In this document: positions 6,974 to 21,678 of the stretch, piece by piece
Position numbering within the stretch: position 1 is the first letter of the stretch
How the letters are laid out: each line of letters begins with the position of its first letter
Source of the DNA: a virus
Strand: one strand, 5' to 3'
Length of the DNA: 25,850 nt
Virus record (IMG/VR): IMGVR_UViG_3300027856_000216
Span: 1-25,850 of that record
Notes under the pieces: model-generated
What the model was told of the DNA's origin: nothing
The model's input: only the letters and a program-made list of their open reading frames with translations
The model's database searches: none
Program-made: the position numbers and the translations under genes

Positions 6974-7603
6974 TTAGCCCCCTATTACACGACGCGCTCG
7001 TCGACGCATCGTACCAGAAAATTGTCTGCGCTGCGCTTCCGCCGACAGGGAGTCCATCGCAGAAGTCAACTTACTTATCCAAAGTTGAACACGCGCGTCG
7101 TTATGTAGGAACGGCTCGGCCTCGACCAGTGTCCCGTACAGGTAGATGTCCGGACTGTCGAGCAGGAGCCAGTTGTCGGCCTGTGAATCACTAAGAGGAA
7201 GGATCTTCCTCCAGTACGTCATCAGCGTCGAGTACGAAGTATCGGGCGCCGGACCGTAGCGGATTGTGCTGCCCGTGATCGCGGCCACCTTCGGAACACC
7301 GGTCGGCCCGTACTGCTGGTTGTACCGTTGCACGACCTCGGCGCCCACGATCTCGATCTCCCCGTAGTACGTCGGCCCGTCGTGGTACCAGGCCTCCATC
7401 GAATCGAAATCAGAGGGCAGAGTGTCCCCGTCAGCGCTGACCGTGAACGTGCCTCGGTCCTGCAGCTTTCGAGTGCGCCAGTCGCGCTCCAACGTTTGCT
7501 CCGCAAGCTGGATGAACGTCGGAATATCGTCTACGAGATCGTCCCGGTTCAACCAGTTCGCGACCTCGGTCTTCAGCGTCGCATAGCTAGTGATCTGAGC
7601 CAT
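6974..7603 (-). CDS. Head-tail adaptor (phage adaptor family, P22 gp4-like role)
   Basis: The 209-residue product begins MAQITSYATLKTEVANWLNR followed by DDLVDDIPTFIQLAEQTLER, the helical N-terminal signature I know from podovirus and siphovirus adaptor proteins that bind below the portal ring. A beta-containing middle follows (TFTVSADGDTLPSDFDSMEA), and then helices rich in Leu and charged residues (YLYGTLVEAEPFLHNDARV). It ends in a basic tail, MRRRARRVIGG. GGGAGAAG precedes the ATG. In P22-like virions the adaptor connects the portal to the nozzle, and both partners are encoded in this operon. The call comes from motif memory plus position. Confidence 0.78.
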   Translation of the reverse strand: MAQITSYATLKTEVANWLNRDDLVDDIPTFIQLAEQTLERDWRTRKLQDRGTFTVSADGDTLPSDFDSMEAWYHDGPTYYGEIEIVGAEVVQRYNQQYGPTGVPKVAAITGSTIRYGPAPDTSYSTLMTYWRKILPLSDSQADNWLLLDSPDIYLYGTLVEAEPFLHNDARVQLWISKLTSAMDSLSAEAQRRQFSGTMRRRARRVIGG

Positions 7604-8318
7604 CTAACTTCTCCCATTCCTCGACACCGAGGGTCTGATACTCTAGGTCACCAACGTGAGCGACCTCTTTTGACAAGTCGTGATCGACGAAGACGTCCAC
7701 ACCGATCTCTTTCATCTTCAGAAAGAAGAACACGTCCTCGCCCATCCATTTTTTCCGATCCTCCAACCACCTGAACCCGAACAACGGCTGCAGGTCAGCC
7801 AGCTTTTCCCGGAACGCTCGGAGGTCCATCAGGCACAGGCCAAACCCCAGAGCCTCGACCCGCTCTATGCCCCGAGACTTGTTGGTCGTACGAACTCGAT
7901 CTCCATAGATCTCTTTGATCGCCACGAAGCTGGGCGGCGCCGTGCGCGTCGAGTAGTTCGCTCCCACGATCGGCTGCTTACGACTCAGCAATCGAAGCAG
8001 TGAAGTTTTCGGGAACCGCATGTCCCCGTCGACCCATAGCACGTGCGAGAAGTTCCCGTTCACGGCCTCGGTCATCAGTTGCTCACGCGCCTCATGAATA
8101 TAGGTGCTGGTCACCATCGTGATACCGAACTCGATGTCAACACCCGTCGCCGTGAACGCCATCGTACTGTGGATAGCCAGTTGCGTCAGGTCATACGCGA
8201 AGACCGAATCAACTTTATCGTGACAGGGCAGCGCGATCATAATCCGGAGCTTCGGTATGAACGCTAGATCCTCCCCGGTCGGCTTCGGAACATCCTGTTG
8301 TCGGGATCGTTTAGCCAT
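7587..8318 (-). CDS. GT-A-type glycosyltransferase-like protein
   Basis: I place the start at the ATG at 8318 (243 residues, MAKRSRQQ). The frame extends further upstream only with an Arg-rich, unlikely N-terminus. Residues 24-31 (LRIMIALP) form the first Rossmann-like strand. A region ending in HVLWVDGDMRFP (about 92-103) carries DGD at 97-99, the metal/nucleotide-sugar motif of GT-A folds. Later segments PIVGANYS and GFGLCLMDLRAF fit the acceptor half, and KWMGEDVFFFLKM resembles the conserved ED region. The gene sits between virion genes and overlaps the upstream gene by 55 bases. It may glycosylate a virion protein, the host surface or phage DNA; the substrate cannot be told. Confidence 0.78.
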   Translation of the reverse strand: MAKRSRQQDVPKPTGEDLAFIPKLRIMIALPCHDKVDSVFAYDLTQLAIHSTMAFTATGVDIEFGITMVTSTYIHEAREQLMTEAVNGNFSHVLWVDGDMRFPKTSLLRLLSRKQPIVGANYSTRTAPPSFVAIKEIYGDRVRTTNKSRGIERVEALGFGLCLMDLRAFREKLADLQPLFGFRWLEDRKKWMGEDVFFFLKMKEIGVDVFVDHDLSKEVAHVGDLEYQTLGVEEWEKLDGSDH

Positions 8319-8572
8319 TTGTTCAGCGCCTCGGTATCGTGCATGAGTTCGGGATGCGCTTCCAGAATCACGTTCGGGATACGCGCGACGTGCGCCATCT
8401 CTCCCCATGGAGCGCGCTCGTCAGTGGAATTGAACTGCGCCTTCGTGAGGTCGGTCACGTCGTCGACCACCTGAGACTTCTCTATGTACACGTCCTCGGT
8501 CACTTCATCGAAATGAAACGTCTCCGTGATCTGAGTGACTGGATCGTAATCGCGCTTGGATACTAAGCCCAT
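8264..8572 (-). CDS. Small conserved podovirus-type protein
   Basis: The 102-residue acidic product starts after AGGAACTC. The second half (EMAHVARIPNVILEAHPELM, then LNKWLNDPDNRMFRSRPGRI) has a pattern I associate with small conserved proteins of podoviruses encoded near the capsid gene. The first half carries YDPVTQITETFHFDEVTED, a run of alternating polar strands. No enzymatic motif is present. The gene starts seven bases after the coiled-coil membrane gene and ends inside the glycosyltransferase gene, so it is part of the same transcription unit. A virion-assembly role is inferred from context only. Confidence 0.68.
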   Translation of the reverse strand: MGLVSKRDYDPVTQITETFHFDEVTEDVYIEKSQVVDDVTDLTKAQFNSTDERAPWGEMAHVARIPNVILEAHPELMHDTEALNKWLNDPDNRMFRSRPGRI

Positions 8573-9931: not shown

Positions 9932-10903
9932 TTACGACGTGGTAAGGTCTGCAGCGATCCCGAGCGACGCTTCCTGCTTGACCTGCAGCGTGTACTCGAC
10001 GATCAGCATCTTCTTGTCCGCGTCACCGGTCTTCGCGAGGTTCACCCGCTTGAACGGCCTCAGGAAGCGAAGCGACACGAAGTTCCAGTCCAGGAACCAC
10101 CCGTCTCTTTCTCTCTGGAACCGGTTGGGGATCACGCGCATCGTGCCAAAGTCCGACACGTATACGTCGGCCGACCCGATGATCGCGGTCGGACGAGGCG
10201 ACACGTTCGACAGATCGAAGTTCCGCGTCGCGATACCTGCGAACCCGGAGACCTTGGTCTTGTTGAACGGCCCCACCATGATCGTGGAGAACTCCGCACC
10301 GGCCGTGTAGCCCGCCTGAATTACGGCCTTCGCGATCGTCTCCGTGAACGCGCGCTGCGTGCCGTCGGTCCGGACAGCAGCAGGCACACCCGACGTGTAG
10401 ACAGGGTTCCCACCACTCGTACCGATGCTCGCGTTCGTTTTGACCCAGGCGCTAAGACTCGCCAACTTCCGATACCCGCCGACCGTGCCGGCACTGCCCG
10501 CCTGTGCCATCAGGCAAGACGTCTCCATGTCACGCTTCAGTTCCTTCGCGTACTTCATGGTCTGCAAAGCCATCTCAGACCTACGCCCAGCCTTGTCAGT
10601 CACTTCGAGAGTGTCGGACAAGACCACAGTCTTCCGTGAGATCTGCGTGTAGTTACCAACACGCGCGGTCGCAGAAGGCGTGGTGAACGAAGCGTCGTCA
10701 CCTTCCAACTGGAAGTTGTCGTCTGCAGCGGCGGCCAGTGAATCGGTCTGCCACTCAGTCAAGGTCTGCTTCGCCTTCGGACCGATGCCTGCACCGCTCA
10801 TAAAAGGCGTTGCCGTCGGACTAATGTCATAGATCATGTCCGACAGATCTTCGCGCAGCCCCTGTGCGTCGTACCTAGTGTACGTTCCTGATACCAGAGC
10901 CAT
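9932..10903 (-). CDS. Major capsid protein, SU10/DUF5309 family
   Basis: The 323-residue product is the shell subunit. The N-terminus MALVSGTYTRYDAQGLREDL followed by SDMIYDISPTATPFMSGAG and then LTEWQTDSLAAAADDNFQLE is the signature I know for the SU10-type major head protein family (HK97-fold). The middle QISRKTVVLSDTLEVTDKAG and the EMALQTMKYAKELKRDMETS helix (spine-helix-like) also fit. The C-terminal half, with VYVSDFGTMRVIPNRFQRER and FLDWNFVSLRFLRPF, is the usual end region. GGAGGACGAA precedes the ATG. The scaffold gene lies 50 bases upstream. High expression is suggested by the strong ribosome binding site and the palindrome after the stop. Confidence 0.92.
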   Translation of the reverse strand: MALVSGTYTRYDAQGLREDLSDMIYDISPTATPFMSGAGIGPKAKQTLTEWQTDSLAAAADDNFQLEGDDASFTTPSATARVGNYTQISRKTVVLSDTLEVTDKAGRRSEMALQTMKYAKELKRDMETSCLMAQAGSAGTVGGYRKLASLSAWVKTNASIGTSGGNPVYTSGVPAAVRTDGTQRAFTETIAKAVIQAGYTAGAEFSTIMVGPFNKTKVSGFAGIATRNFDLSNVSPRPTAIIGSADVYVSDFGTMRVIPNRFQRERDGWFLDWNFVSLRFLRPFKRVNLAKTGDADKKMLIVEYTLQVKQEASLGIAADLTTS

Positions 10904-12087: not shown

Positions 12088-12340
12088 TTGCAGCTACTTC
12101 CCCGTCGGCCATGATACTCCGCAGTGAGTCCTCAACCGCGCCAAGCGCAAGCGTCTTCGCCCACATAGCTTCTCGTACCTGGGGCGTTTTCGCGTGCAAC
12201 CACTCGTCATAGAAGCTCTGGCCGGCCAACTCCACAGCCTCTTTGAAGATCTCGTCGCCCAGTATAGCGTGAGCGCGCGCTCCACGTCGGATCGCTTCAT
12301 CATCAGTGTACGTTTCGGGCTCGTACTGTCTACTGGGCAT
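12074..12340 (-). CDS. Small head protein between portal and scaffold
   Basis: I prefer the ATG at 12340 (88 residues, MPSRQYEPETY), five bases after GGAGG, to the GTG two codons upstream. The product is helical and charged (DEAIRRGARAHAILGDEIFK, AVELAGQSFYDEWLHAKTPQ, LALGAVEDSLRSIM). Small helical proteins in this slot, next to a P22-type portal and SU10-type capsid, are common, but I do not know a biochemical function. It overlaps the portal stop by 11 bases and is followed by the hairpin before the scaffold gene. Confidence 0.68.
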   Translation of the reverse strand: MPSRQYEPETYTDDEAIRRGARAHAILGDEIFKEAVELAGQSFYDEWLHAKTPQVREAMWAKTLALGAVEDSLRSIMADGEVAASRVS

Positions 12341-14558
12341 TCCCACCTCCGCTCATCGCCTGCAACTGTTTCAGATCGGCGTCCATCACCATTCGATCGC
12401 GCTCGATCTTGTTCTTGATCTGCCGGTCGTCGATCTCGATCGCGTACTTGGCCTCGATCTCATGCTCCTTGAGCGCCATCTCGCGAGCGACCTTGTCCCT
12501 CTGCCGATCGTCTTCGAGATACGCTTTCTGCGTTTCCAACTGAAGCTTGGCCTGATCGTTCGCGGCCTCGGCCTGCGCCTTCTGACCCTCGATCTGTATC
12601 AGCATCTGTGCCGGGTCCGGAGGCGGCGGCTGCTGCGCCTGTGCCTGTTGCATCTGCTGCTCCTGCTGCTCGGTCCACGGCTTCCAGAACTCGGCAGCGT
12701 TGCGCCAGCCGGCAAGCTCGACCATTCGCGCCAGTGTCGCGCGAAGCTCCACGTTGGACACGATCGGCGAACCCATCTGCAGCAGTTCCTGCTGCTTCCC
12801 AGCGACCATCCCGAGCAGAGCTATCTTTTCCTCGATCAGCCCGGTACCGAGAGCGACGTTGATGCGGACGTCCATGTTCGCGTTCCAGGACCGAGGATCG
12901 ACCTCGACAAATTCGTCACGCAACCGAATCATGCGCGACTGATCCTGGTTCTCGATGACCAACTCCAACAGACCCTGGAACAGTCGCTTGACTCCGGTCT
13001 CCGCGAACACGCGCGCAATCATCTCGATGCGCTGCTGTGCGGCCGTGACCGTAGCGGACACAGCGGCCTTGGTCGTCGACTGCAGCACGTCCGGGTCCAG
13101 CCCCTGTGACGCCTTGGACTGCCCGGACCGGCCTTCCTTGATCTCGTCGTAGTACGCGAGCACAGGCAACGTGTCCGGTCCGACGAACCCGTGCTTGACC
13201 TCCCGGATCATGCCCGGCTGGCGAACACGAATCAGCCCGCCCAGTTCCGGATTGAGTAGGTCCTGCATGTTGACCGCGTTCGCTACGACCTCCTGCTGCG
13301 GATCGATCGCAAGCCCAAGCGAGTCCAGCATTCCGCGCTGAATCTGCGACTTAACCTTCTGCACGTCCTTGAGCAGGTCCCAGAACCCCATCCCCATGAT
13401 GGTATGTGGCTCGGGGTCCGGAGTGATGACCGCGAACGGCCGGCTCGATACGATCGTGCCCAACTTCTCGCCGTTCTCGTCCGGTATGATCTTGAAGTGC
13501 GGACCGATGCAATCGAACCTTCGAAGCTCCGCGATCCCGTCGTCGTCGCCATCGAAATACACGTATGCCTCCGCGTACACGACCGGTAGGAGGGACTCCG
13601 GTAGCTCCCCACCGATCAGCGCGCGCTCTCCGGTCCCCGCACGAATGTCACCGACCCAGAAGTGCTCTTCCTCAACATGTCGCGCGGACTTGAGGTCGTC
13701 GGACATCGTGGAAGACGATGTCCTGCTCTGTTGGATCGATTCATCGATCAGTTCCTGTGGAACGCCCATCTCCAGAAGCTCTTCCTGTGGAACGTCCCGA
13801 ACGTGCGCGACCATGGCCGCGTCGTCTATCGACCTGGCGTCCGGCGAGTAGATGAACTCTTCCGGTGGAATGGTCTCGATCTTGGCGTCGCCTTTGTCGC
13901 TCTTGTGTGTGACCGTCACGTTGTATACGGTCGTCGGCGGCGCCTCGGGCATCGCGGGCGGTACCTGCTCCGTGGACGTTATCTTGACGTCGACTTCCTG
14001 GTCCTGGAGCAGCACCATGACCTGGTTCTCGGTCAGGTCGGTGTGCTTGGTCTCTTCCTTGCGCGTCAGTTCGTTCCACCACCACTTCACGATTCCGATC
14101 CGACGCACGAGCGCGTCCTTGAACCAGGAATGGAAGACCAGGAACCCCGGATTGTCTTCGTGAACGATGTACTGCACGTAGTCCGTGGCCTGGGCGGCGC
14201 CCGCCGCGTCCGACTCTCTTTCAGGTCGATACTCGACCGCGCGCTCGCTCCCAACGAAGATGCGGAGCAGCGACGGCATGACCTGAAGCACAGCGTCGCG
14301 CAGATCGGTCGACACGACCTTCGATCGACCGTCTTCCTCGTTCCCGAACTCCCGCCCAAAATAGTAGTCGGTCGCGTCGACCTGATCGGGTTCAATGTTC
14401 TCTTCACGGTACGACATGGCCTCTTCGAGCATGCGTTGCACGATCGATTGGGCGTCGGTCTCGATGTCGTCGTCGGACGCAGTCGCCGGAAAGTCCTGGT
14501 CTAACTCGAACTCAAAAAGCTCCGCGCCCTGCAGATCGGGATCTCTGCGGTCAACCAT
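12330..14558 (-). CDS. Portal protein, P22 gp1-like
   Basis: The 742-residue product is close to the 725 residues of P22 gp1. The N-terminal part (IVQRMLEEAMSYREENIEPD, VSTDLRDAVLQVMPSLLRIF and VGSERAVEYRP) and the following YIVHEDNPGFLVFHSWFKDA are typical of the P22 portal family. The core contains SRPFAVITPDPEPHTIMGMG and the wing/stem helices. From about residue 620 the protein is Gln-rich and helical (EQQEQQMQQAQAQQPPPPDP, then alternating K/E/Q helices to the end), as expected for a long barrel. It docks terminase during packaging and later the adaptor. GAGGTG precedes the ATG, which overlaps the GNAT gene by eight bases. Confidence 0.92.
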   Translation of the reverse strand: MVDRRDPDLQGAELFEFELDQDFPATASDDDIETDAQSIVQRMLEEAMSYREENIEPDQVDATDYYFGREFGNEEDGRSKVVSTDLRDAVLQVMPSLLRIFVGSERAVEYRPERESDAAGAAQATDYVQYIVHEDNPGFLVFHSWFKDALVRRIGIVKWWWNELTRKEETKHTDLTENQVMVLLQDQEVDVKITSTEQVPPAMPEAPPTTVYNVTVTHKSDKGDAKIETIPPEEFIYSPDARSIDDAAMVAHVRDVPQEELLEMGVPQELIDESIQQSRTSSSTMSDDLKSARHVEEEHFWVGDIRAGTGERALIGGELPESLLPVVYAEAYVYFDGDDDGIAELRRFDCIGPHFKIIPDENGEKLGTIVSSRPFAVITPDPEPHTIMGMGFWDLLKDVQKVKSQIQRGMLDSLGLAIDPQQEVVANAVNMQDLLNPELGGLIRVRQPGMIREVKHGFVGPDTLPVLAYYDEIKEGRSGQSKASQGLDPDVLQSTTKAAVSATVTAAQQRIEMIARVFAETGVKRLFQGLLELVIENQDQSRMIRLRDEFVEVDPRSWNANMDVRINVALGTGLIEEKIALLGMVAGKQQELLQMGSPIVSNVELRATLARMVELAGWRNAAEFWKPWTEQQEQQMQQAQAQQPPPPDPAQMLIQIEGQKAQAEAANDQAKLQLETQKAYLEDDRQRDKVAREMALKEHEIEAKYAIEIDDRQIKNKIERDRMVMDADLKQLQAMSGGGNAQ

Positions 14559-14979
14559 GTTTCACCTCTAGTTTTTTCTCGAACCACAAGTACTCTGGAT
14601 GCGCCCCTGCTGGGCGGTACAACTCAAATCCTTCACGAAGAAAGCTCTTGGCCGACGCAATGTTGTCGGTCCACGTATACGAAATCACTCGTTCATGCCC
14701 TAGCCGACGGGCCTCTCTCACACACGTTCGCACCAACCGCCGGCCAAGACCACGTCCCCGACCCGACTGCAGCAGCCCGATATATGAAACGAACACGGCG
14801 TCCCAGTCGTGCTCACTTCGCCCGAGCATCGCGAACCCAACGACCCCGTCACCATGCCACACCAACCAGGCGCCGAACTCGTAGTAATGCGGCACCAGGC
14901 TGTTCGCGTCGAACAGCAAATGGTGGATGCTCGTCGCGTACACGAGATCGTCGTGGGTCTGGCACCGACGAATCTTCAT
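14551..14979 (-). CDS. GNAT-family N-acetyltransferase
   Basis: I choose the ATG at 14979 (142 residues, MKIRRCQTHDDL), which overlaps the large terminase stop as ATGA and begins exactly at the usual first GNAT strand. An upstream ATG at 15018 with GGGGAA would add 13 residues. Motif A is clear: a strand VFVSYIGLL and the acetyl-CoA loop R74-x-x-G77-x-G79 in SGRGRGLGRRLV. It is followed by motif B (SAKSFLREGFELYRPAG). GNAT enzymes transfer acetyl groups to amines of small molecules or proteins; the acceptor here is unknown. An acetyltransferase inserted between terminase and portal genes is an accessory ('moron') gene, possibly modifying a virion or host protein. Confidence 0.85.
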   Translation of the reverse strand: MKIRRCQTHDDLVYATSIHHLLFDANSLVPHYYEFGAWLVWHGDGVVGFAMLGRSEHDWDAVFVSYIGLLQSGRGRGLGRRLVRTCVREARRLGHERVISYTWTDNIASAKSFLREGFELYRPAGAHPEYLWFEKKLEVKHG

Positions 14980-16508
14980 TGGTTCCACGTGCGCTTGCTT
15001 TTCAGCGTCTGGTTCCATGGTACGTTTCCCCAGCCTGTTCTGCCTGGTGTCGAGCCGTGGATCAGTGTGGCCGGCTCCGACGCGAACGACAGACAGAACG
15101 CGTCAGCGAAGTTGGGGGACTTGAAGCCCCTTTTCTTCATGTCGTCCTTGGACTCGACCTTGAGCTTTCCACTGGACGTAATCACGTAGCGCGGCGTCGC
15201 CAGGTCGCTCGCCAACCGTTCGAACGGACAGTCCTTGCTCCCACTCGGAACCGGCAGAGACACGCTGAGTTTCGAAAGCCACTCGCGCGCCTCGAACCAT
15301 AGCTCGTCACGCAGTCGCCAGTACCGTTCCTTGAACGCGGCCGACTCCGACACGTTGATACCTCTGGCCGGCAGTCCCAACTCCACCAGGCGATCACATA
15401 CACCCGCGCCCAGTCCGTTGGAGTCGATCAGGATCTCTTCCGGCCTGTCCTCCAGTTTGCACTCGTCCCACTTCTGCTTGACGCGCCCTGCGGTCCGCAT
15501 GAGGTCAACACCTCCCCAGTACTCAATGTCAGGGAGCACGGACAGCTTGTTTCGCCGCACGAGCACGGACAGATCTGATCCTGTTCTCGCAACGTCCAGA
15601 CCCCACACCTCAGACAATAGACTGGGTGGTATCTGAAGATCTCGACGTTGGGCACTGGCGATAAACTCATAGGGTATGACCGTATCGTCGTCGGCCTTTG
15701 GGAACTCCCCCAGAACTCGTACGCGATAAGCGTTGGAGTCCTCTCCGTACCGGATTGCGACGTCATTGGCGTAGTCATCTGAGATCCTGTTCGAGTGATA
15801 CGAGCCCTCCGGCCGTTCGTCGGCGTTCGGTAAGTACCCGACGTGCGTCGTGTGCCAGTACGACGACATCTTGTGATGCGAATCGAAAAACGTGCCTGAC
15901 GTTCTTACCGGGTTGGACAGCAACAGTGTCTGCGCGTTTTCCTGGGACATGGAACCGACCGCCGACTCGAACACTTGCTCGGCGACGCCCGACGCTTCGT
16001 CCACGACCAACAGCACCCAGCCCGGATCGCAGTGAACGCCCTGCAACGCTTCCGGTGTTTCTGCGCGTGACGTTCGCGCCTTGAAAAACGATTCTTTCGG
16101 TCGGGACTTCAGTACTATCTCACGTGCTTTGATCTCGTACAGATCACGCAACGGCGGCGGAAGGCGCCCAGCCCATTTGACCAGTTCGGCCACCAGTGCA
16201 TCGTCTAGCTGGCCTCCCGTCGGCGCCGTTGCGATCACTTTCTGCGGATAGCGTGTCAGTAGCTGATGCCAAATGCACCAGTCGGCTCCACAGGTCTTGC
16301 CCGGCCCGTGCGCGGACCGAACGCTGATCCTTCGCTCTCCCCGACCGTACGGTCGGAGCAGTCCGTGGATCTGCCACTCGTCGGGCTCTTCTTTGAAGAC
16401 CTCGCGCACCATGCGCTCCGGTCCCAACTCGCCGGCCGGTGGTCCATACCTCGCAACAAATTCAGCGAACACATTATTGATGCTCTCGGTGGTCGGGATC
16501 TGCGTCAT
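14976..16508 (-). CDS. terL: Terminase large subunit (packaging ATPase/nuclease)
   Basis: The product is 510 residues. Walker A is SAHGPGKT at 65-72, preceded by the adenine-side element DEWQIHGLL at 44-51. Walker B is VLLVVDE at 165-171 and the coupling motif LLLSNP at 195-200. The C-terminal nuclease has acidic residues in GLDVARTGSD (D305), ILIDSNGLGAG (D362) and NFADAF (D469), consistent with an RNase H-like metal site. It cuts concatemers and drives DNA through the portal. The start has GGAG seven bases upstream and overlaps the stop of the repeat-protein gene as ATGA. No key residue is missing. Confidence 0.95.
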   Translation of the reverse strand: MTQIPTTESINNVFAEFVARYGPPAGELGPERMVREVFKEEPDEWQIHGLLRPYGRGERRISVRSAHGPGKTCGADWCIWHQLLTRYPQKVIATAPTGGQLDDALVAELVKWAGRLPPPLRDLYEIKAREIVLKSRPKESFFKARTSRAETPEALQGVHCDPGWVLLVVDEASGVAEQVFESAVGSMSQENAQTLLLSNPVRTSGTFFDSHHKMSSYWHTTHVGYLPNADERPEGSYHSNRISDDYANDVAIRYGEDSNAYRVRVLGEFPKADDDTVIPYEFIASAQRRDLQIPPSLLSEVWGLDVARTGSDLSVLVRRNKLSVLPDIEYWGGVDLMRTAGRVKQKWDECKLEDRPEEILIDSNGLGAGVCDRLVELGLPARGINVSESAAFKERYWRLRDELWFEAREWLSKLSVSLPVPSGSKDCPFERLASDLATPRYVITSSGKLKVESKDDMKKRGFKSPNFADAFCLSFASEPATLIHGSTPGRTGWGNVPWNQTLKSKRTWNQ

Positions 16509-18472
16509 ATCTGAACTCCGATATTGATCGTGATATACGACTCCAGCACGTCGCCGGCATCGGTCTCCGGTGCAACAAGCTCAAACGCGCTAACCTCCGC
16601 TGCACGCGGCGCTGGCGCCGTCTCGAACTCGAACGCACTGACCTCTGCGGCACGATCGGCGTTGGGTGTCTCAAGCTCGAACGCCGACACCTCTGCGGCG
16701 CGATCGGCGTCAGGCGCCTCAAGCTCGAACGCCGACACCTCTGCGGCACGTGGCGCGATCGGTGCCTCCAGTTCGAACGCGCTGACCTCGGCTGCGCGGG
16801 GCGCGTCCGGGCTCTGAAGCTCGAACGCCGATACCTCTGCCGCCCTGGGCGCTGTCGGCACCTCCAACTCAAATGCCGACACTTCCGCAGCACGAGGCGC
16901 GTCGGCCACCTCGAACTCGAACGCCGACACCTCGGCGGCCCGTGCAGCGTCCGGCGTCTCAAGTTCAAATGCACTGACCTCGGCAGCGCGATCGGCGTCC
17001 GGCGTCTCAAGCTCAAACGCGCTGACCTCGGCCGCTCTCCCAATGTCCGGCGCCTCAAGCTCGAACGCCGATACCTCTGCGGCACGTGGCGCGGTCGGTA
17101 CCTCCATCTCGAACGCCGATACCTCTGCGGCACGCGGCGCGGTCGGTACCTCAAGCTCGAATGCACTGACCTCTGCGGCACGTGGCGCGTCGGCCGTCTC
17201 GAACTCAAACGCCGACACCTCGGCGGCACGAGGCGCGTCCGGTGCCTCAAGCTCGAACGCACTGACCTCCGCAGCACGATCGTCCCCGCCCTCATCAATC
17301 AACTCCAACGAGAACGCGACGATGTACCTCTGAGTGCAGGTCCCGTTGGTGTCGTCCTCGTTCATTACGTCGACATCGAGCGTCTGAGCACTGGCCGCCA
17401 CGTCCTCGACACTGGCCCAGCCGTACAGCACCCTGTCAGTGCTGTCCCATCGACGGTTGCGGTACGCCGCAGTGGAGAGATCCCAACCGTTCAGATCGGA
17501 TTCCTCGATCTGCATACGGTGCCCGACGTCGTCGGACGCGCCACTGTTGTAGGCCGACCCGCCCAGGACGGCGATGTTGCCCGCGCCCGTAGGCGTGAAC
17601 TCCAGGGTCGCTACGTTCGTGCCTGGCCAGGTCCAGGTGTTCGATATACCGACCGACCCGGCCGTCCATAGCTGCGACACGTCAACGAAGTGCGCGTCCA
17701 GTTGGATCGCCAGGATCTTACTGTGGTAGCGAGTGGTCGAGCCACTGCCATCTAGGCGGCTCTGTTCGAGGATGGTGTGCTCGCTGTCGTCAAGGGCCCC
17801 AGCAGGCATGGGGCGGATATTGACCAGCACCATCTTGTCCTGGGTCGTGTCCTCTGCTTCCTGGCCCTTCCAGGTGTCAGTGTCGCTGTCGTCTATGTTG
17901 ATCCGGGACTCGTGCTGCCGGTTGGAGTCGGCACTGTCCAGTTGCGAGAGCGAAAGTATCAGCCATTCCTGGCCCGTATCGGACGGAGTGAACGTGATGC
18001 TCGCACCGTCAATGTTCAGGTCAAAGTCGTCGTCATCTATAGTGTCGTCAGTGGCGCGCTCCGCGAAGTGGTAGTCGGTGTCCGCTTCGAAGCCCGCGTC
18101 GGTCAGACTGATCGCGAGTATGATGATTTCGTCGATGTCCGCGTCGACCGTGTCGGTCATCGACTTGAACTGGACCTTGATGTCTTCCGTGCTGGCCTGT
18201 GTGAAAACGTCCCAATAGTTGTACTGGCTCCAAACACCACCATAGCCCTCCATGATGTGCTCGGAGTCCACGAAGTCGGTCGAGCCATGGACGCACTTCA
18301 CGGCCGTGGACGCGCCGCCGTTCTCGTTCCTGAACGTGGCCCGAACTAGAAGTAGATAGACTTCTCCGTTAGTTAGCCCGGACCCGGCAAGAACGTCCGC
18401 GTCTGCATATACGTTGGTGGAGTTAGTGTCGTCGGCCGTGAGATACGAGACTGCATAGGAGACCTCTGCCAT
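16505..18472 (-). CDS. Fibre/adhesin-like protein with fifteen 16-residue C-terminal repeats
   Basis: The product is 655 residues. Residues 1-200 and about 215-395 are two beta-sandwich-like domains with similar endings (WLILSLSQL with RINIDDSD, and IAVLGGSAY with RMQIEESD), both acidic and rich in D, S and T. From residue 400 there are fifteen tandem copies of a 16-residue unit, AAEVSAFELEAPDAPR, in which AAEVSAFE is invariant while positions 9-16 vary. The last copy runs into ESYITINIGVQI. No enzyme motif is seen. Two beta domains plus a repetitive stalk suggest a long adhesin, fibre or tape-like spacer. It is ATGA-coupled to genes on both sides and lies directly before the large terminase. 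Confidence 0.78.
   Translation of the reverse strand: MAEVSYAVSYLTADDTNSTNVYADADVLAGSGLTNGEVYLLLVRATFRNENGGASTAVKCVHGSTDFVDSEHIMEGYGGVWSQYNYWDVFTQASTEDIKVQFKSMTDTVDADIDEIIILAISLTDAGFEADTDYHFAERATDDTIDDDDFDLNIDGASITFTPSDTGQEWLILSLSQLDSADSNRQHESRINIDDSDTDTWKGQEAEDTTQDKMVLVNIRPMPAGALDDSEHTILEQSRLDGSGSTTRYHSKILAIQLDAHFVDVSQLWTAGSVGISNTWTWPGTNVATLEFTPTGAGNIAVLGGSAYNSGASDDVGHRMQIEESDLNGWDLSTAAYRNRRWDSTDRVLYGWASVEDVAASAQTLDVDVMNEDDTNGTCTQRYIVAFSLELIDEGGDDRAAEVSAFELEAPDAPRAAEVSAFEFETADAPRAAEVSAFELEVPTAPRAAEVSAFEMEVPTAPRAAEVSAFELEAPDIGRAAEVSAFELETPDADRAAEVSAFELETPDAARAAEVSAFEFEVADAPRAAEVSAFELEVPTAPRAAEVSAFELQSPDAPRAAEVSAFELEAPIAPRAAEVSAFELEAPDADRAAEVSAFELETPNADRAAEVSAFEFETAPAPRAAEVSAFELVAPETDAGDVLESYITINIGVQI
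16556..17275 (-). repeat. Fifteen tandem 48-bp coding repeats
   Basis: Each 48-bp unit encodes AAEVSAFE plus eight more variable residues. The invariant Ser is written with AGC/AGT in seven copies and TCG in eight, and neighbouring third positions also differ freely. The repeats are thus conserved as protein rather than as DNA. Confidence 0.95.
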
Positions 18473-18873
18473 CAGACCAGCACCGGTTTGTTCGACAGTT
18501 CGAGGACCGTGAAGCCGTCCCTAAGCAACAACGTCTCAAAGCCGTCCCGCCATGCGTTGTAGACTTCCAGGATCGCTTCTTGCTCGTCGCGGTTCTGCTT
18601 GAGATCCGCCAACGCGTACATCTTAGGATAGATTTGCCAGCCACCAAAGTCCGGACGCTCACGCACACGCGGATCGGTGCCGACAAAGATGCTCTGCACG
18701 AAGTAGTCGCTGGCGAACTTCGAACGGACATCGGCCGCACCTGTCACCAGCACGACGTCCTCGACCCAGGCCCAGACCTCGGCCGTCGTCATCGTCGGAT
18801 GAATGACGTTGGCGACGACCTTGAGGTTGTAGGGTCCGTGGGTCCGGTCTTTGGGCTCGTTGGTCCAGCCCAT
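18472..18873 (-). CDS. Virion-associated protein of unknown fold
   Basis: The 133-residue product begins MGWTNEPKDRTHGPYNLKVV. It has alternating strand and helix segments (TAEVWAWVEDVVLVTGAADV, SKFASDYFVQSIFVGTDPRV) and a helical second half (LADLKQNRDEQEAILEVYNA). I do not recognise the family. It starts at an ATG five bases after the end of the 152-residue gene and ends in an ATGA overlap with the repeat-protein gene. It may be a chaperone or base protein for that fibre, because such pairs are commonly coupled, but the sequence gives no direct sign. Confidence 0.66.
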   Translation of the reverse strand: MGWTNEPKDRTHGPYNLKVVANVIHPTMTTAEVWAWVEDVVLVTGAADVRSKFASDYFVQSIFVGTDPRVRERPDFGGWQIYPKMYALADLKQNRDEQEAILEVYNAWRDGFETLLLRDGFTVLELSNKPVLV

Positions 18874-18878
18874 GGTTC

Positions 18879-19337
18879 TTAGGCCTGATCGGCGGACATA
18901 CGCAACTGCAGATCCGTATAGTCCGTGATCGAGTCGGCCTCGCCGCCCGTCAGCGTGTCGGTCTGAGTCGCATACGCGTCTGGAATGTCGTTGTCGGCGT
19001 ACGCGTTGATGAGCGTGCCCTGCGTGCCCTCGTCCACGTAGCCCTCACGAAGCTGCATGGTGAGGTTGATCGTCGCGCCACCAGCCGCGTTTTTCTGCCG
19101 GCGCCATCGCATGATGTGCCCGCTCGAACTTACCGGGTCCTCGATGTTGGAGAGACCAAACCCGCAGGCCTCGTCCGACGGAGCACTGGGCGACACCGCG
19201 TAGGTCGCGTCGTCACCGGCCCCAATACTGCCCGGTGTGCCTGGCGCGATGTCCGCGTACAGGTCAGCGTTGGAAGAGCCCTGGTCGACCCAGTTGCCGT
19301 CAACGAGGTCAGCGTCTGGGACTGAGTACTGAGCCAT
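18879..19337 (-). CDS. Beta-sandwich virion protein (carbohydrate-binding-like domain)
   Basis: The 152-residue product starts with AGGAGAACATC before the ATG. The pattern QYSVPDADLVDGNWVDQGS, then LYADI, DEACGFGLSNIEDPVSSSGH and IMRWRRQKN, then NLTMQLREG and ending LTGGEADSITDYTDLQLRMS, is one I know as a single beta-sandwich module found in virion proteins of many environmental phages. It probably binds sugar or decorates the particle (inference). There is no enzyme motif and no trimerisation domain. It sits in a block of five small to large structural-type genes preceding the large terminase. Confidence 0.7.
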   Translation of the reverse strand: MAQYSVPDADLVDGNWVDQGSSNADLYADIAPGTPGSIGAGDDATYAVSPSAPSDEACGFGLSNIEDPVSSSGHIMRWRRQKNAAGGATINLTMQLREGYVDEGTQGTLINAYADNDIPDAYATQTDTLTGGEADSITDYTDLQLRMSADQA

Positions 19338-21120: not shown

Positions 21121-21678
21121 CTATAAGAGGTCCACTAGGATCGGGTCCGCTTCGAACTCGTCCTCGGCCGGGACGACCCCGGACTCTTCTTCGATCGCCA
21201 ACACTTCGGCGTCTATCACTTCGCCTGCCACTTCGAGACTTGGTTCGGCCAACCCACCACCGATCAATGCCTGGAGGTGTAGCTCGCCGACGTTCAGGTT
21301 GAGAGCGACGGCCGCCGTCTTATCGTCGCCGTAGGTGTCAGGGTCACGCTTCGAAGCCAACCACTTCCTCCAGTTGGCTCGCGAGTTCGCCAGCGATACC
21401 TCGGCGTTCGAGAGCAGCACTTTACTACCGAGGTCGTCGAGCAGCTTTTGACCCTGCTCAACGTTCGCTTCCGCACCAAGCCGACGGGCTCGTGACCACA
21501 TCTTCTCACGCTCACTGGACTGATGCACCCAGTCATAGAACATGTTGCGGGACAGATTGTAGTCGCCCATGATCTTGCCGACAGAGTCGCCATCGGCAAT
21601 CCGGCTCAGTATCACATCGTCGCCGCCCTCGCTCTCGATCTGTTCTGAGAACGCGCGCAGCAATGGACGTCCTGGCAT
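21121..21678 (-). CDS. terS: Terminase small subunit (putative)
   Basis: The 185-residue product starts with GGAGGAAG before the ATG. Residues about 22-50 (VILSRIADGDSVGKIMGDYN, LSRNMFYDWVHQ) form a helix-turn-helix of the type that small terminase subunits use to recognise phage DNA. A charged helical segment follows (MWSRARRLGAEANVEQGQKL), then the familiar RANWRKWLASKRDPDTYGDD motif, and an acidic C-terminus that may contact the large subunit. It is the first gene of the minus operon, next to the divergent control region. Unusually, the large subunit lies 4.6 kb downstream. Confidence 0.82.
   Translation of the reverse strand: MPGRPLLRAFSEQIESEGGDDVILSRIADGDSVGKIMGDYNLSRNMFYDWVHQSSEREKMWSRARRLGAEANVEQGQKLLDDLGSKVLLSNAEVSLANSRANWRKWLASKRDPDTYGDDKTAAVALNLNVGELHLQALIGGGLAEPSLEVAGEVIDAEVLAIEEESGVVPAEDEFEADPILVDLL

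Follow-up and report, generated by a model that had tools for sequence, protein, structure and literature searches.

Donor-strand complementation is the principle on which chaperone-usher pili, type V pili and TasA fibres are built: a beta-sandwich that lacks a strand receives it from another chain, and every subunit provides one such donor strand to the next. Scaffoldins, through cohesin-dockerin pairing, arrange many partner proteins on a single chain with repeated binding sites. A related arrangement has been engineered as GFP11x7 with GFP1-10, in which the last beta-strand, of 16 residues, was removed and supplied as a tandem series; every copy recruits a single partner that lacks the strand, linkers of five residues are enough, and synonymous codons were used by the designers against recombination between the repeats (Kamiyama et al., 2016; PMC4802074). 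Here we analyze a tandem repeat array encoded in an IMG/VR virus record (IMGVR_UViG_3300027856_000216), the 25,850 bases of which are referred to as the window. The repeats had been singled out in a sequence-only reading of this DNA, but their explanation lies outside the coordinates given there, because a neighboring gene encodes a protein of 152 residues (p152) that lacks exactly the strand repeated in the array. We consider it quite likely that the array serves as a scaffold of tandem donor strands, with every unit completing a single p152 subunit, so that a multivalent fibre of the head or neck results. Sequence comparison shows which strand this is, that p152 has lost it, that the loss is compensated by a complementary occurrence of the motif, and in which order the genes lie; these findings carry the proposal.

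The octapeptide AAEVSAFE occurs 15 times in the array protein with all 14 spacings exactly 16 residues, a regularity far beyond chance. Each unit consists of one beta-strand (residues 2-10) and a Pro-rich linker of five to seven residues, and unit positions 9-16 vary (L/F/M, E/Q/V, A/T/V/S, P/A and D/T/I/N/P/E, among others). The sequence-only reading proved exact in the coordinates, the period and the variable positions, as well as in its count of seven AGY (AGT 4, AGC 3) and eight TCG codons for the invariant serine. It had also proposed strong selection on the peptide, to be checked by the ratio of non-synonymous to synonymous divergence (dN/dS) between copies, and a duplication that is not recent. 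The ratio (Nei-Gojobori) is 0.05 for the core positions 1-8 and 0.42 for positions 9-16, the core dN arising entirely from the AGY-TCG path, which supports strong purifying selection on the peptide. Tandem Repeats Finder reports periods of 48, 96 and 192 bp with a DNA match of just 69-72%, and three of the four four-fold degenerate core codon columns are as diverse as the codon usage of the genome allows, with Ala6 biased to GCG. Most core synonymous sites are saturated, which supports an old duplication, as proposed, and speaks for rejecting a very recent one together with programmed recombination. A flexible or disordered spacer, in which composition alone matters, would suit the Pro/Ala/Glu-rich linkers, but it is scarcely credible given the low core ratio and a V-S-x-x-E-x-E core that is invariant across distant phages. 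A constant peptide with scrambled codons would be expected if one and the same groove had to accept every copy and identical repeats were unstable as DNA.

The serine codon is perfectly linked to the preceding valine codon (GTY-AGY in 7/7 copies, GTR-TCG in 8/8; Fisher P=0.00016), which indicates two codon blocks and not free synonymous drift. The two types follow no obvious order along the array, and they derive either from two old unit types (unit lineages) or from codon context. Elsewhere in the window the Val-Ser codon tendency has the same direction and is not significant (P=0.11).

The relatives of p152 adjoin the arrays of very different phages, and no sequence relatives were found in PHROG, PDB or isolated phages. 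In all array loci p152 ends 0-2 residues past the last shared strand ('..LRFVANQ'), whereas in its fused relatives the chain runs on into a strand at the point where p152 of the array phages stops. Where arrays are absent, 34 distinct p152-like domains each contain the motif once, after a short linker (as a rule 3-13 residues). Examples are DLRLRFTMTR-AGGSARGARVSWAEFEVP in locus L194, the motif strand GGGGHAEITWAEFEVP in L197, and the C-terminus ...GGGQARAARITWAEFETPTT in L211, which is followed by the stop. Nine of the 34 own strands were assigned by eye, having diverged below the profile cut-off (e.g., RAAQITWGQFRCP in L204 and ETRVSWVYFTCP in L253).

AlphaFold2 modeling of the natural fusion L211, based on a 54-row alignment, gave a mean predicted local distance difference test score (pLDDT) of 97.4 and a predicted template modeling score of 0.91. 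In this model the motif forms strand 144-152 and is predicted to be the last strand of a jelly-roll sandwich. VIA-align matched residues 1-154 of the model, ending with the motif, to CBM4, CBM16 and similar jelly-rolls (Z about 11), which aligns the motif with the final strand of these carbohydrate-binding modules (CBM). Foldseek agrees with a CBM-type jelly-roll, and phage proteins such as Pas29 of Actinoplanes phage phiAsp2 have the same fold. As modeled, the p152 domain together with the motif strand is a CBM or galactose-binding-like jelly-roll.

The link between this strand and the array was also recovered independently. A profile made from the fused last strands only placed 13 of the 15 window units as the top 13 among the 38,307 13-mers of the window, and the remaining two at ranks 16 and 17. 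It could be argued that the units are strand-like linear motifs for a different partner, for instance a glycan or a protein of the capsid or the host surface, given their identical, acidic, surface-type residues at fixed spacing and a copy number that varies from 3 to 29. Since the motif is itself the final strand of the p152 fold and travels with p152, we regard such a partner as very unlikely. The p152s that end in LEFVA and not LRFVA (L097, L127, L163, L171 and L176) were observed to accompany arrays with D/E at unit position 4 and no RR start, a possible charge covariation between acceptor and donor.

Complementary occurrence was evaluated with locus counts deduplicated at 90% identity, the loci from the last scan having 3-kb flanks. 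About 50 of the 80 loci fetched with the p152 profile carry an array on the same strand. The motif was found elsewhere in the locus for 0/25 domains with their own strand versus 54/64 strandless p152s (Fisher P=2e-14, without correction for kinship); 42 of these 54 hold arrays and 12 hold one or two copies. A later check of L181 revealed two donors 5 kb away, bringing the strandless p152s with a donor to 55/64. Because the background of the motif profile is zero (0 matches in 760,133 residues), even single donors are meaningful; they are located in another gene (L168, L178, L179, L186 and L189) or further on in the same chain (L177 and L193). The series of 1, 2, 3 and up to 29 copies looks like stages of one process. 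All 42 deduplicated p152-array pairs are on the same strand, with the array downstream in 41 of them, and the divergence of p152 is correlated with that of the motif (Mantel r 0.35-0.45, 0/2000 permutations). Apparent arrays without p152 lie at contig ends (L094, L099, L107 and L116) or have only 590 bases upstream (L117) and are for this reason uninformative on its absence; the L111 array has no p152 in 2 kb upstream. In bacterial and archaeal genomes, p152-like domains mostly keep their own strand. One strandless domain, forming the end of a longer protein, was observed in a cellular genome (L284, a Ferruginivarius sediminum scaffold), with no donor motif within about 7 kb, the other cellular domains of this type keeping theirs.

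The loci L177 and L193, whose chains each hold one strandless domain and one motif, would also fit a strand exchange within array proteins, the array completing array-protein domains and p152 using another donor, and some array proteins do contain p152-like or other sandwich domains (L117). In most arrays, however, the units far outnumber such domains, and no p152-type domain was detected in the array protein of the window, which makes an internal exchange extremely unlikely. Another alternative is that the array folds by itself into a beta-solenoid or beta-meander stalk, which grew as the final strand of a sandwich upstream was duplicated, with p152 being a separate virion protein truncated by chance. 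A complete beta-sandwich often precedes the repeats in the same chain, and AlphaFold2 of the whole window protein (pLDDT ~80) places two short strands in every 16-residue stretch of the array. This single-sequence model suggests a beta-solenoid, a fold that AlphaFold2 is known to invent for repeats (PMC11795689). We gave it little weight for that reason and because stacking would align Glu3, Glu8 and Glu10 of every coil into ladders (net about -3 per unit). Foldseek found no solenoid relative, and a stalk of this kind accounts neither for a p152 without exactly this strand whenever an array is present nor for the single unrepeated motifs in trans; we hold it to be unlikely. Structure prediction, a check that the sequence-only reading had suggested, is therefore not trusted for the array, and its use here lies in the L211 fusion. 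Among the roles proposed there (a stalk, a ruler or a binding array for a repeated ligand), the binding array fits best, with p152 as the most likely ligand, and a self-standing stalk or ruler gained no independent support.

Several points weigh against the donor-strand scaffold. Nine strandless p152s are without a detected donor: L131, a close relative of the window p152 on a 35-kb fragment, L165, L195, L200 and L203/L261 (one record), as well as L144, L157 and L164, all on short fragments. The Mantel correlation is confounded by shared ancestry. The tree suggests up to ~11 state switches, but its branch support is weak and no more than 1-2 of them are forced by well-supported branches; one of the independent pairs is supported, and the sign test on such pairs lacks power. 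In the window lineage the invariant Ala6 and Phe7 differ from the Trp-Ala of most relatives, and the fit of the window strand is accordingly taken from homology. The physical complex itself is putative.

In the mechanism that we propose, the p152 gene has lost the C-terminal beta-strand of its carbohydrate-binding-type beta-sandwich, and this strand (AxVSxxExExP) is encoded instead on a second protein, in 15 tandem copies with one per 16 residues. By docking at the open edge of a p152 subunit, each copy would complete the fold of that subunit, and a single array chain could in this way hold a row of up to about 15 p152 domains; 16 extended residues span ~50 angstroms, which would leave room for one domain of ~150 residues. 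The result would be a fibre of many binding domains, probably of glycan-binding type, on the head or neck of the phage. Such a rail would assemble without chaperone, usher or covalent bond, and its valency could be tuned via the repeat number, with one- and two-copy donors in trans representing intermediate stages. We infer the physical complementation in trans and its stoichiometry, along with the virion location, for which the basis is that several phage types encode the pair amid genes for terminase, portal and head-tail adaptor, and glycan binding, for which it is the CBM-type fold. In evolutionary terms, it seems fairly likely that a glycan-binding-type jelly-roll was divided in phages, its final strand being transferred to a gene of its own and multiplied there to 3-29 copies, the number of units setting the number of domains per fibre.

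The repeats belong to a family with the consensus RRAQVSWAELEVPTAP, in which V, S/T, E, E/Q and P positions dominate, partly because the search pattern demanded them. At least 49 distinct arrays of 3-29 units each were found, providing the comparison of repeat number among relatives that the sequence-only reading had recommended. A degenerate two-unit pattern retrieved 39 stretches from virus contigs, whereas bacterial and archaeal genomes gave no match. Within the range of 15-20 residues, one gap between units is of 15, 358 are of 16 and 53 are of 17-20, a floor near 16 as if a minimum unit spacing were needed. Arrays occur alone, after beta-sandwich domains, or split by FN3 or beta-helix-like domains, and a related 29-unit array is located directly upstream of the terminase (L012). 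Inside this array (L012:2710-5001), two DIGADEY elements, of a kind familiar from the ends of beta-helix proteins, replace repeat units, and an FN3 domain interrupts it. Another array (L110:419-1540, minus strand) is split by one in-frame stop codon mid-unit, which is either a sequencing error, decay or stop readthrough. Other short beta-like tandem repeats of 12-22 residues (e.g., SVIHTRxFGxPxV and ADAGSYxVxGxDA), some following p152-like domains, were observed in L070/L072, L077, L089 and L065 (terminase-related) and in L170, L185, L198 and L200; these could be further strand arrays.

Searches of papers with the exact motif and the consensus peptide gave no match, and tblastn against isolated phages gave none for the window protein, another array or p152, on which grounds the family seems confined here to metagenomic virus contigs. 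Pfam and PHROG matches on the repeats (Cas_VVA1548, NOPS, DPC4_N and others) were rejected as apparent low-complexity artefacts covering a few residues each, almost none having a single stretch that passes the cut-off. The motif search proposed in the earlier reading has therefore led to an unnamed family, found here only in metagenomic virus contigs, and not to a known named module.

By its SU10-type portal and major capsid proteins, the phage is classed as an SU10-like podovirus (Table 1). The array gene lies in the head module, between the probable small terminase and large terminase genes, and its end is overlapped by the latter by 4 bases. No Pfam, PHROG or PDB match worth keeping was obtained for the array protein, whose residues 1-399 may serve as a virion anchor or as extra binding domains. 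A single near-identical second contig (99.97% identity) has the same 15 units. Two further genes listed in the table, a candidate acetyltransferase and a weak glycosyltransferase-like gene, are recorded as side observations.

Table 1. Features of the window discussed in the text, in order of position.
Feature	Position	Strand	Evidence or remarks
Weak glycosyltransferase-like gene inside structural module	7587-8408	-	phrog_1574 3.5e-14; Anp1 below cut-off
SU10-type major capsid protein	9932..10903	-	PF17236 1e-88
SU10-type portal protein, head-gene context	12330..14558	-	PF23899 6e-186
Candidate GNAT-type acetyltransferase, between large terminase and portal genes	14551-15018	-	Assigned by eye
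Terminase large subunit	14976..16508	-	phrog_2 3e-33
Array protein, 655 aa	16505..18472	-	Beta-rich N-terminal region, 15 units and short C-terminal tail
15 repeat units AAEVSAFE[LFM]ExxxxxR, proposed donor strands	16556..17275	-	Residues 400-639
Array protein N-terminal region, beta-rich	17276..18472	-	Residues 1-399; no family match
133-aa gene between p152 and array gene	18472..18873	-	
p152, proposed acceptor, 152-aa carbohydrate-binding-type jelly-roll	18879..19337	-	Ends right after '...TDLQLRMSADQA', before last strand
Probable small terminase gene	21121-21678		Assigned by eye

If the proposal is true, it describes a new way to build a multivalent fibre, in which the repeated information is that for a single beta-strand and not for a complete domain. 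In uncultured phages, it would also explain together a repeat family and a protein family that both lack a name (the scanned members being without Pfam, PHROG or PDB match), show a split domain evolving into a scaffold through one-, two- and many-copy stages, and offer protein engineers a natural alternative to split-GFP arrays. The repeat with constant peptide and scrambled codons arose naturally, and the designers of GFP11x7 picked the same trick.

Donor-strand complementation implies an acceptor that lacks one strand of its fold and a missing strand encoded as part of a different chain in that system, and both are found here as judged from sequence. Like chaperone-usher pili, type V pili and TasA fibres, the phage system would combine an incomplete sandwich with a strand from another chain into a fibre, but its donor strands would be many and lie on a separate scaffold, none being on the subunits, and its fold is CBM-type. 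No homology to the pilus and TasA systems was seen, and no chaperone or usher families were present among the window proteins included in a general family scan, which covered part of the genes and was not a dedicated search. The array resembles a scaffoldin in having many partner sites on one chain, whereas scaffoldins use folded modules of about 150 residues and the phage uses single strands within 16-residue units. Likewise, the p152 domain with the motif strand resembles CBM4, CBM16, CBM6 and CBM36, galactose-binding-like jelly-rolls (Z about 11 over 127-131 residues), although sequence identity is 6-8% and p152 itself is without the last strand. A literature search for donor-strand work in phages returned nothing comparable, which is not proof of absence. 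The nearest architecture, by analogy, is GFP11x7, which likewise presents a last strand in tandem with constant peptide and varied codons; it is, however, an engineered beta-barrel, while the phage system is a natural jelly-roll whose complex is putative. Since the working principle would be the same, the nearest architecture is engineered and nothing comparable was found in phages, we would, pending a demonstrated complex, file the phage array as a new variant of donor-strand complementation.
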